Below, piece after piece: positions 20,601-54,100 of a DNA stretch of 64,000 bases; positions within the stretch are counted from its first letter, which is position 1, and every line of letters begins with the position of its first letter. Origin of the DNA: Sacculina carcini. Lineage: Eukaryota; Arthropoda; Thecostraca; Sacculinidae. The notes below the pieces were generated by a model. That model was not told the origin of the DNA, did no database searches, and saw only the letters and a list, made by a program, of their open reading frames with translations. Position numbers and translations under genes: made by a program. The DNA lies in contig OU696580.1 in NCBI GenBank assembly GCA_916048095.2, positions 5,024,608-5,088,607 on the forward strand, read 5' to 3'.

Positions 20601-23600
20601 GTGCGCTTCCAGAACATGGGGCCACCGCATGGTGGTAATAGTTCTTGCAATCATCCCATATCACTGAATTTGCCTGTTATTAATAATAATGGTAATAAAT
20701 AACTATTTTTTCAGATTGCTTTTGCCTTTGGATTGGTTTTTTAAATGTTCATAAAAACCAATCCAAAGGCAAAAGCAATCTGAGTTAGTAATACGAATTA
20801 TAAATTTGATAGAGGAAGTATTCTTGAATACTGTTTGAAAGGTATACGTTCACGACATAACCCTTGTCAACCCAAGTGTAACTAGACAAAATCCCAAAAT
20901 ACATTTCAATAAAACAAAACGCATGAGAAATTGGCCAATGAAATCAGCGGGCTGGTGAAGAAGATGTGTATGAATATGCTTAAATTATCAAGAAAATCAA
21001 CTGGAAATGCAGAAACGCTCAATGATGGTTGTCAAGAATATCATCAGCTTTCTCAACCAAAATAACAAAGTGCTGACTGTGCACAAAAGTGTCTACATTG
21101 CACCACGATGCACGAATATATGATCAGCATACGCGTTGCATGCTGCATTAGTTTTGTCCGATCAGGACAGGACACTCCAACAGTATAACGATTGTGTCGA
21201 AAATATATACACAGCACATGAGCCGCATGTAGATTGACTTTGTCCGATTATAAGATGATGCATGACACCCATCATAATCACCTTGTAAAGTTCCCATAGC
21301 AGCAGAACAAGATACCATGCACTCATAGCATTTTTATTTGACTGTGCATCATACAGTATACAGTAGACGGTATACAGTCTGTCAGAGTACTCCGCTACAT
21401 CGCCAAAATGCTTGATATCGATATCAAACTAAGCTATAGTCAAATCGCAACCGTGTGACTGGTCAAATCGAAATTACTGTCAAGAAGCAAATAGCAGCTG
21501 CTTCAAATATTAAGAAATCAGAGCAGACTCAACCTGTGTATATAGTGTGTATATAATTTGGACGGTCATGCACTCAAACCCGGTGCTTGGTTAAGACGAA
21601 TCGATATCGAAAAATGACCGATATGGGACCGATAATGACGCTCAACGAAATCAACTGTTTTGGAATACACATACTGAAATGTAGAGCGGAGGTAGATGGC
21701 CGAGGCTAAACGTATAATGTCAGTGAAAATAAAACCCCTGATTGGAAATATTGCAGATCATCAACCCGCTCTTGAGCCTCTAGGCTAGTCTAGAGTCTAA
21801 ACTATTTCCCTTCTATGTCAGACACAGCTGTTCTAGGGGAGACAAACTGACACAACACGTTCCTTTTCCTTCACGAAAATAGTGTGCATCTACACTAGTG
21901 TATATATTAGTCGATAATGAGTGTATCTATAAATCTGCTTCGATATACTATCATGCAACAAGTGCACTCAATCGATACCATTGTCTAAATGTCAACAGTC
22001 TAGATGTCAACAGTCTAGATGTCAACAGTCTAGATGCCAACAGTCTAGATGTCAACAGTCTAGATGTCAACAGTCTAGATGTCAACAGTCTAGATGTCAA
22101 CAGTCTAGATGTCAACAGTCCAGATGTCAACAGTCTAGATGTCAACAGTCTAGATGCCAACAGTCTAGATGTCAACAGTCTAGATGTCAACAGTCTATAC
22201 CATTTGCAATTTGATTTGAGAAAAGTGAAAATAGAATTGAGAAAAGTTAAAATAGATTTGAGAAAAGTGCAAATAGATTTGAGATTTCACTTTTCTCAAA
22301 TCTATTTTCACTTTTCTAAAATCTATTTTCACTTTTCTCAATTATATTTTCACTTTTCTCAAATCAAATTGCAAATGGTATAGATGTCAACAGTCTAGAT
22401 GTCAACAGTCGAGACATCAACAGTCTAGATGTCAACAGTCTAGATGCCAACAGTCTAGATGTCAACAGTCTAGATGTCAACAGTCTAGATGTCAACAGTC
22501 TAGATGTCAACAGTCTAGATGTCAACAGTCTAGATGTCAACAGTCTAGATGTCAACAGTCTAGATGTCAACAGTCTAGATGTCAACAGTCTAGATGCCAA
22601 CAGTCTAGATGCCAACAGTCTAGATGCCAACAGTCTAGATGTCAACAGTCTAGATGTCAACAGTCTAGATGTCAACAGTCTAGATGTCAACAGTCTAGAT
22701 GTCAACAGTCGAGACATCAACAGTCTAGATGTCAACAGTCTAGATGTCAACAGTCTAGATATCAACAGTCTAGATGTCAACAGTCTAGATGCCAACAGTC
22801 TAGATGCCAACAGTCTAGATGCCAACAGTCTAGATGCCAACAGTCTAGATGTCAACAGTCTAGATGCCAACAGTCTAGATGCCAACAGTCTAGATATCAA
22901 CAGTCTAGATGTCAACAGTCTAGATGTCAACAGTTCACATACAATGTGACAACTGAACTCAGAAACAATACAGATTGGCAGCCGAAAACAATGATATAAA
23001 CAAGTTCGTGTTTCGTTCAATGTCCAAGGTAATCAGCAGCTGGTCTTCTGAGAATAACAATTGCGCTCTTTCCCGTGTCAATTTATCGGTAGATTGTGAG
23101 AAGAAAAAACAAGAAAAATCAAGTCAGAACCTGGGAGAATGATGAAAATGATTTCAACTTTGGTTACAAAAACGTTCATACATGCCAGCAGCGTCCTTGC
23201 AAACATCCACGCTTATAACCACAACACAATGAACACCAACATCGAAAAATACACACATAAATGCACTGCCTGACACACAAGCACACACTGACCGTGAGCC
23301 GTGTTATCTGAGGCGGTGTGATCTAGCAGCACTTGATCTTGGTCGGCAGAAAAGTAGCCGTCCGAGTGGCCACTGTTGGCTGCTACACGCCGTGTTGAGC
23401 AAGCAGTGCGTGACAGAACGTCGTGCCCGCCGGCGTCACCAGCAGTGCTGGCCACCACAGCACGCGCACCTGCCTACCACACACCGACACACGCATACAA
23501 ACGGACGTGCGTTCATCAGCACTAATACACGGACGGCACCAATGTGGAACCAGGAACACACGGACGCAACGGAGCACCACAAGCCCGTAATGACGTCCTT

Positions 23601-51150: not shown

Positions 51151-54100
51151 CTGTTGAACACACACACACACACACACACACATGCAGACATAAGCCAAAA
51201 TAACAACGAATATACGACGAGCTGAAAGAAAGCAAACGAAAGAAAATGTGGATAACACAGATGCTAAACACGCAGGAGTGCAGGATCAGCGAGCAATACT
51301 TGAACTGCATGACAGATATCTGGAAACATAGACTCAGTAAACATAGGGAGACATAACTATAAATTGAACTATTGAAACAACGCTTGTGGATAACTTATAG
51401 CAAAAGTGAATATGAACTAATTGAGAAAATGACGACGATACGGATACAAAACAACGTGAAAAATAACAAATGGCACATAAACCAAATATAATTATAAATG
51501 CTTACGTACAGAACATACAGCGAGCGTTTTAACCTCTCGGCGAACTCGGCATTAATACTAGTTCAAATTACACTGATACTATACCATTTACAAGTCAATT
51601 TGGCAAAAGTGAAAATCAATTTGGCAAAAGTGAAATTCAATTTGGCAAAAGTGAAATTCAATTTGGCAAAAGTGAAAATCAATTTGGCAAAAGTGAAAAT
51701 CAATTTGGCAAAAGTGAAAATCAATTTGGCAAAAGTGAAAATCAATTTGGCAAAAGTGAAAATCAATTTGGTAATTCTTACAAATTTAGGTGGTAGTCGC
51801 ATTGATAATGCATAATCATATTGTTTATTAGTGTTTTAGTAACAAGATTATTACTCATGCAAATGATATCAATTAATGTTTTATGTTTAAGAATATATAT
51901 AGTTTAAGAAGATATCATGTAGGGATATATTTGTTGATGAAGTCCATTATATTAGCATCAAAATGATCTATTAAGTGATTGGGCTTAGCTCCGATTCAAG
52001 GTTAATAATAAAATAAACTCTACTTTTTACAATTTCATTTGTCCCAATTGAGATCAAAATTGTCCCAGTTAGAACCACAATGTATGTTATTGATTTGACA
52101 TTAAATATCAAACTTAATTGTTATCAGTAAATTTTATTGTATTTCACATGAACAATTTAGCATTAGTCGTAAAACACAGATATGTACTACTTAGTATGTA
52201 CTATACAATTATGTGTTATGGTATGTACTACAATTACAATGCAGATATGTACCGTAATTACTTACTTTATGAGGAACTCTATCAGCCAATATATCAATGT
52301 CAGCGTATATACCACCAGCGCGTGTACTTAAATTCTAGCAACAAAGCAAGATATCACAACTCAACACAATCACAACGCAACATGGCCCACTGAAACACAT
52401 TCACTAACAAACACGCACAAACGTTCTGCGCAAACAACTGCCCTATGGCGCGCACTGCCCTATGGCGCGCACTGCCCCACCCCCTGTATCCCCTGCTCGC
52501 TCATAGCACGTGCATACAACATACACACTACCTACACTCACACTCACACTACCTCGCACACACAAATGGACACCATATACAAAATATACACCGTACAATA
52601 TTAACATAGTACAGATGGCTAGCAACGACAAGCGCTATTCGCACGTGATGCCTGAACACTTGCCATAAGACGGAATGTACCGTCTCTGAAAGTGTGATGT
52701 TTCTGTAGATGTGTGTGTGTGTGTGTTCGCACGATTTGCTCGCGAGTGCACTCCGAGAACAGTGACCATACGCTGACACTGATATATTGGCTGATAGAGT
52801 GCGCGCCATAGGGCAGTTGTTTGCACAGAAGAATATATATATTTTCTTAAACATTAATTGATATCATTTGCATGAGTCATATATTTGTTACTAAAACACT
52901 AATAAACAATATGATTATGCATTATCAATGCGACTACCACCTAAATTTGTAAGAATTACCAAATTGATTTTCACTTTTGCCAAATTGATTTTCACTTTTG
53001 CCAAATTGATTTTCACTTTTGCCAAATTGATTTTCACTTTTGCCAAATTGATTTTCACTTTTGCCAAATTGATTTTCACTTTTGCCAAATTGATTTTCAC
53101 TTTTGCCAAATTGAATTTCGCTTTTGCCAAATTGATTTTCACTTTTGCCAAATTGACTTGTAAATGGTATAGTTCAAATTACACTGATACTAGTTCAAAT
53201 TACACTGATACTAGTTCAAATTACACTGATATTAGTTCAAATTACACTGATACTAGTTCAAATTACACTGATACTAAATAAAATTACACTGATACTAGAT
53301 AAAATTACATTGATAATAGTTCAAATTACACTGATACTAGTTCAAATTACACTGATACTAGTTCAAATTACACTGATACTAGTTCAAATTACATTGATAC
53401 TAGTTCAAATTACACTGATACTAGTTCAAATTACACTGATACTTGTTTAAATTACACTGATACTAGTTCAAATTACACTGAGACTAGTTCAAATTACACT
53501 GATACTAGTTCAAATTACACTGATACTAGTCCAAATTACACTGATACTAGTTCAAATTACACTGATACTAGTTCAAATTACATTGATACTAGTTCAAATT
53601 ACATTGATACTAGTTCAAATTACACTGATACTAGTTCAAATTACACTGATACTAGTTCAAATTACACTGAGACTAGTTCAAATTACACTGATACTAGTTC
53701 AAATTACACTGATACTTGTTTAAATTACACTGATACTAGTTCAAATTACACTGATACTTGTTTAAATTACACTGATACTAGTTCAAATTACATTGATACT
53801 AGTTCAAATTACACTGAGATTAGTTCACATTACACTGAGATTAGTTCAAATTACACTGATACTAGTTCAAATTACACTGATACTAGTTCAAATTACACTG
53901 ATACTAGTTCAAATTACATTGATACTAGTTCAAATTACACTGATACTAGTTCAAATTACACTGATACTTGTTTAAATTACACTGATACTAGTTCAAATTA
54001 CACTGAGACTAGTTCAAATTACACTGAGACTAGTTCAAATTACACTGATACTAGTTCAAATTACACTGATACTAGTTCAAATTACACTGATACTAGTTCA

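Follow-up and report, generated by a model that had tools for sequence, protein, structure and literature searches.

Foldback elements at WCTAGW targets in the genome of Sacculina carcini and their probable affinity to IS630-Tc1-mariner transposons

Two foldback elements within tandem arrays

The stretch of DNA analysed here, hereafter the window, comprises 64,000 nucleotides of the genome of Sacculina carcini (C15:5024608-5088607, in a genome of 264 Mb and 43 contigs). It contains two foldback-like elements, each inserted in a different tandem array (Table 1). Element 1 consists of two inverted arms, each with about four 21-bp repeats, and has almost no spacer; its arms are 95-98% identical over 87-97 bp to those of two other loci of the genome, L035 and L052. 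In element 2, the inverted arms comprise about 9 and 10 repeats. No transposase was found within element 2 (51582..53169), and its nearest copy among the fetched loci, L036, is 98.5% identical to it (5 mismatches and 2 gaps in 1557 bp). The inverted termini of both elements read TACCATTT(G/A)CAA. Exact matches to TACCATTTRCAA number four in the window and form two inverted pairs, while the 24 matches at up to 2 mismatches correspond to chance level. The motif AAAAGTGAAAAT, at up to 1 mismatch, is found 25 times versus 0.88 expected in shuffles. The coordinates, termini, 21-bp arm repeats, duplicated TA and both host arrays described in the original prediction were borne out by the re-examined sequence, as was the placement of both insertions at CTAG, or more exactly at WCTAGW (W, A or T).

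Both host arrays appear to be single-locus. The exact double unit of the TCTAGATGTCAACAG array and the exact unit pattern of the TAGTTCAAATTACACTGATAC array occur at no other locus of the genome, all genome-wide matches to the two patterns (91 of one and 16 of the other) lying inside the window; the comparison covers exact matches, which diverged arrays elsewhere would escape. The array region of element 2 (51501-58120) holds 194 WCTAGW sites. Element 2 is placed after the first of about 235 units of its array (51558-51581), an edge position which had a low prior chance. A part of the interior of element 2 matches locus L063 of subfamily f (see below) at 89% identity in an alignment of 626 bases, and positions 52021-52080 resemble by eye the arm repeats of that subfamily.

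Table 1. Elements, target duplications and host arrays of the window
Feature	Position	Strand	Remarks
Host minisatellite of element 1	21983..22934	.	15-bp unit TCTAGATGTCAACAG, broken by element 1; 46 WCTAGW sites
Left TA of target duplication, element 1	22196..22197	.	Context TC-TA
Element 1	22198..22380	.	183-bp non-autonomous copy; subfamily b, arm unit ATAGATTTGAGAAAAGTGAAA
Right TA of target duplication, element 1	22381..22382	.	Context TA-GA
Single host-satellite unit left of element 2	51558..51581	.	
Left TA of target duplication, element 2	51580..51581	.	Context AC-TA
Element 2	51582..53169	.	1588-bp non-autonomous copy; subfamily a, arm unit ATCAATTTGGCAAAAGTGAAA
Left arm of element 2	51582..51771	+	
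Right arm of element 2	52959..53169	-	
Right TA of target duplication, element 2	53170..53171	.	Context TA-GT
Host satellite right of element 2	53170..58093	.	21-bp unit TAGTTCAAATTACACTGATAC, 234 units

A dispersed group with a common target and transposase

Ends of this type are numerous in the genome: TATACCATTTRCAA is found at 669 ends (342 + 327), versus 4 matches to the reversed control pattern. For closer analysis, 40 regions, 30 short loci, one locus identified by DNA match and six short stretches were fetched. The first 70 loci (L001-L070) follow genome order along contigs C1-C3, being taken from the first 100 places, and were not chosen for arrays. They yielded 88 ends which, together with the four window ends, make up the 92 distinct ends analysed. 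The arm repeats, sorted by eye, split these ends into at least six subfamilies; besides subfamilies a and b, represented in the window (Table 1), these are c, d, e and f, with the arm units TCTGATTTGATCCAAATGAAA, ATAGAGTTAATCCAAATGAAA, ATCAATTTTACAAAAGTGAAA and TCACAATTGTCCCAACTGAAA, respectively. Foldback shapes range from 183 bp to several kb, the number of units per arm varies among copies, and about 1 to 28 repeat copies were counted per end within 600 bp inward.

The arm repeats of 21 bp keep a constant register relative to the tip of the element. TGAAA stands at tip positions 29, 50, 71, 92 and 113 in 83, 75, 66, 53 and 54 of the 92 ends, respectively, and elsewhere between positions 13 and 120 at no position in five or more ends. 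When written in tip register, the consensus units of all six subfamilies end in TGAAA, their other letters being variable.

Several fetched copies have further peculiarities. L046 (1073-4715) contains two subfamily-a elements with only 36 bp between them, where about two copies of a 15-bp sequence with CTAG are found. In L044 (2337-3566), the 21-bp repeats of one arm of a subfamily-e element have expanded to over 1 kb, which gives a 7-residue repeat in the translated frames. Gag-pol-like frames between element ends in L034, L040 and L051 apparently belong to nested retrotransposons of the LTR (long terminal repeat) type. An identical element end with its flank is present at five places along about 14 kb (C10:7370576-7384683), apparently as the result of a local duplication.

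The target of these elements is 5'-WCTAGW-3', of which TA is duplicated. This follows from the bases next to the ends and from end pairs. At the 669 ends, the base preceding TA is C in 563 cases and T in 24, and A/T followed by C precedes TA in 554. Among the 92 distinct ends, 83 have C at position -3 and 90 have A/T at position -4. Both sides carry CTA in 26 of the 29 end pairs read in L031-L058; the exceptions are L034, L040 and L056, and the ends of L034, which have unlike arm repeats, are probably not those of one element. The duplication of TA is supported by an empty site. When the flanks of L035 are joined at one TA, an uninterrupted reading frame results, with what we take to be reverse-transcriptase motifs. 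The joined sequence is matched 41 times in the genome; 29 of the matches span bases 1-240 at 97% identity or more, and the one match that was read, L071, is continuous through TCTAGA (GACAGATCTAGATACACG). Both host arrays of the window likewise yield the empty unit.

Copies with a transposase between such ends, which the original prediction had proposed to look for, do exist among the longer members of the group. Transposase frames are present in L031, L035, L038, L045, L052, L065 and others, several of them broken; that of L031 has no stop and extends over 349 codons from its first ATG. At least 123 transposase matches were counted in the genome. Pfam detects DDE_3 in four of the five transposase pieces scanned and, at the N-terminal side, weak helix-turn-helix matches; apart from a few weak unrelated matches, nothing else was reported in the five pieces, and no THAP domain. 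The NCBIfam model of IS630, NF033545, scores 110.3 bits with L031, 104.7 bits with L045 and 85.6 bits with the partial frame of L025, so that two of the three proteins pass its curated cut-off of 100 bits. In L031, 82 residues separate the two aspartates of the catalytic triad and 33 the second aspartate from the glutamate, corresponding to DD33E. The transposase also matches 363 plasmid records, all at less than 60% identity; most of the 15 matches listed are annotated as IS630 family transposase. Taken at the level of sequence, elements 1 and 2 are very probably non-autonomous copies of a DNA transposon group that encodes a DD33E transposase and is of the IS630-Tc1-mariner kind.

Several observations weigh against this picture. 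The C is missing from 106 of the 669 ends; of the nine ends lacking C at position -3 among the 92, four have one duplicated flank in common. An intact transposase of subfamily a, to which element 2 belongs, was found in no fetched element, L060 having a fragment. In a search of the PDB, Sleeping Beauty is a weak match (E 0.1), below a chance match to insulin (E 0.036). Finally, transposase identity and repeat identity correlate at r = 0.34 over five subfamilies, a value reached by 26 of 120 permutations, and a co-variation of the two is thus unsupported.

Element 1 as a DNA query had no match in phage records, and a pattern-based search of bacterial and archaeal genomes and viral contigs, which is sensitive to close relatives only, confirmed none.

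Site density and the association with minisatellites

The original prediction considered it improbable that both elements had hit CTAG within a tandem array by chance. This estimate does not hold once the sites are counted, since the two arrays contain 243 of the 352 CTAG sites and 240 of the 275 WCTAGW sites of the window. Given the target and the present array sizes, two of two insertions in arrays have a probability of about (240/275) squared = 0.76.

A preference for tandem arrays as such, beyond their number of WCTAGW sites, would also account for the position of both window elements, and a few other copies point the same way. L074 lies in a CTAG array with a 27-bp unit (11.4 copies in the fetched stretch) and L075 in one with a 13-bp unit (18.6 copies at 81% match). 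These two belong to the six stretches chosen by eye for repetitive-looking flanks (L072-L077), of which L072 and L073 lie beside 2.4-copy CTAG repeats and L076 and L077 show neither arrangement. L068, one of the 88 fetched ends outside the window, borders on a degenerate 24-bp repeat of 9.3 copies (62% match), some units of which contain CTAG; this repeat is visible only with looser settings of Tandem Repeats Finder (TRF) that were applied to L068 alone. With ordinary TRF settings, however, none of the 88 fetched ends outside the window touches a CTAG array of at least three copies. A tandem repeat of period 6 or more lies within 25 bp of 10 of the 92 ends, three of which are window ends.

A second CTAG 4-34 bp outside the element was matched 73 times, corresponding to 69 distinct ends of the 563 with CTA (12%), a number that includes the four window ends and several repeated flanks; among the fetched ends outside the window the count is 9 of 79. 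This is twice the lowest controls but within their range of 6-14%. In flanks more than 60 bp away, 45 of 316 CTAG site-sides (14%, 17 of the 45 cases coming from one array in the flank of L052) and 9 of 89 WCTAGW site-sides (10%) have a nearby CTAG. The figure is 14 of 218 sites (6%) in the non-array part of the window, and 118 of 1951 flank windows (6%) contain at least one CTAG; the flank controls all lie within 1 kb of elements. A clear excess of nearby CTAG at the ends is thus not seen, although an excess of up to twofold may exist. The repeat at L068 led us to raise slightly our estimate for a preference for arrays as such, which we still consider unlikely. Of the targeting preference suggested in the original prediction, the part concerning CTAG is strongly supported by the 563 C-TA ends, whereas there is no clear sign that arrays are favoured beyond their CTAG density. 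Site density explains the proposed link to minisatellites well enough.

The arrays might instead be products of the elements, if element ends or excision scars seeded or stimulated the growth of flanking repeats. The restriction of the exact units of both arrays to these loci would agree with such a process, and so would the edge position of element 2, with a single array unit to its left, and the CTAG repeats of about two copies that flank L046, L072 and L073. However, tandem repeats of period 6 or more are absent from the 25 bp adjoining 82 of the 92 ends. Moreover, the 234 units of the element 2 array are of 21 kinds and differ from their consensus by 3.3% on average, whereas element 2 itself is nearly identical to L036 (5 mismatches and 2 gaps in 1557 bp), suggesting that the variation of the array is older than the insertion. 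The array around element 2 thus probably came before the element. Seeding by element termini, an option raised in the original prediction, is unneeded, unlikely for element 2 and, on the whole, quite improbable. Element 1 consists almost wholly of inverted repeats, as a palindrome formed by local inversion inside its own array would, and the original prediction had named such an origin of both palindromes as a refutation of its proposal. Yet the arm sequences differ from those of the arrays, and the same termini recur at hundreds of other places, where those that were read have target duplications. An origin by local inversion is refuted by these dispersed copies, and we regard it as next to impossible.

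Other features of the window lie apart from the two elements. Frames at 17341-18746, 25182-25700, 40383-42952 and 60411-62252 presumably represent, judging by their motifs, remnants of piggyBac, mariner/Tc, Pao-like and non-LTR reverse-transcriptase elements. Rfam predicts a tRNA at 36732-36802 (34.6 bits, above its cut-off), where ARAGORN reports none. Two (TG)n runs are very long, with about 300 copies at 59809-60411 and about 580 at 62312-63486.

Relation to known systems and a possible mechanism

Inverted arms of tandem repeats with changing copy number are familiar from the FB elements of Drosophila, which make target duplications longer than TA. Tc4 and Tc5 of Caenorhabditis elegans have foldback ends, a CTNAG target, a three-base TNA duplication and a pogo-type transposase; the elements described here differ from them in the TA duplication and in DDE_3. 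To our knowledge, an IS630-type enzyme in a large eukaryotic genome, helically phased foldback arms and near-absolute targeting of a hexamer are known only apart from each other. The titles and abstract beginnings of the part of the literature matches that was covered contain no eukaryotic CTAG-targeting foldback family of the IS630 type.

The bacterial IS630 family (IS630, ISY100) shares with the present group the NF033545 match and the TA duplication. IS630 is reported to prefer TA in CTAG (Tenzen and Ohtsubo 1991, cited in PMC2170065), so that the target and the type of enzyme fit each other; ISY100 is reported to use a TA target, and CTAG is not mentioned for it in the relevant passages of PMC2170065. 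Unlike the bacterial family, the present group has a eukaryotic host, long foldback arms of 21-bp repeats and the longer hexamer WCTAGW as a target, and its transposase is only 22.6-29.0% identical to the 15 plasmid matches listed. DDE_3, the weak helix-turn-helix matches at the N-terminal side and the TA duplication are shared with Tc1/mariner transposons, including Sleeping Beauty. The catalytic spacing in Tc1/mariner is given as DD34-41E/D in the section of PMC8533490 concerned, versus DD33E in L031, and the target there is TA alone rather than a CTAG hexamer; the Sleeping Beauty match, as noted, is weak. In print, DD33E was encountered once, in a passage of PMC8472432 on a pogo variant of bees, a different group, and the CTAG in the corresponding passage of PMC10085805 concerns stop-codon readthrough.

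Foldback arms comparable to those described here are known from two further systems. The arms of Galileo of Drosophila are long, inverted and internally repeated, with several sites for transposase binding, and its transposase, of the P-element superfamily, has a THAP domain (PMC3688188). Multiple transposase sites in foldback arms thus have a tested precedent in Galileo, although the present group has DDE_3 and no THAP domain was found in it. The inverted arms of Tetris are composed of tandem repeats of about 220 bp which change in copy number and became satellites, as an excerpt of PMC4079207 describes; here, the repeats also vary in number, but they are 21 bp long and the host satellites are unrelated to them. 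Taken together, these comparisons very probably make the group a variant within the IS630-Tc1-mariner kind, distinguished by its foldback arms and its hexamer target.

How the arms and the target might be connected can be outlined as follows. The transposase would join the element ends to TA within the palindrome WCTAGW, thereby duplicating TA, presumably by the cut-and-paste chemistry of its family. As 21 bp correspond to two helical turns, the arm repeats are putative protein-binding sites on one face of the DNA, and each would most likely be bound by one transposase protomer through the N-terminal helix-turn-helix. Tentatively, and with rather more doubt than confidence, we propose that this eukaryotic transposase of IS630 lineage assembles as a row of protomers on the 21-bp repeats, phased every two turns to the cut site, and that the assembly requires the full WCTAGW hexamer, a far stricter target than the TA of Tc1/mariner. 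The association with minisatellites is very probably a by-product, arrays with WCTAGW in each unit being dense targets.

The combination of traits seen here would offer a system for testing how target choice in the Tc1/mariner/IS630 group is linked to multi-site ends. It also indicates that target-site density alone can make transposons appear to have an affinity for minisatellites.

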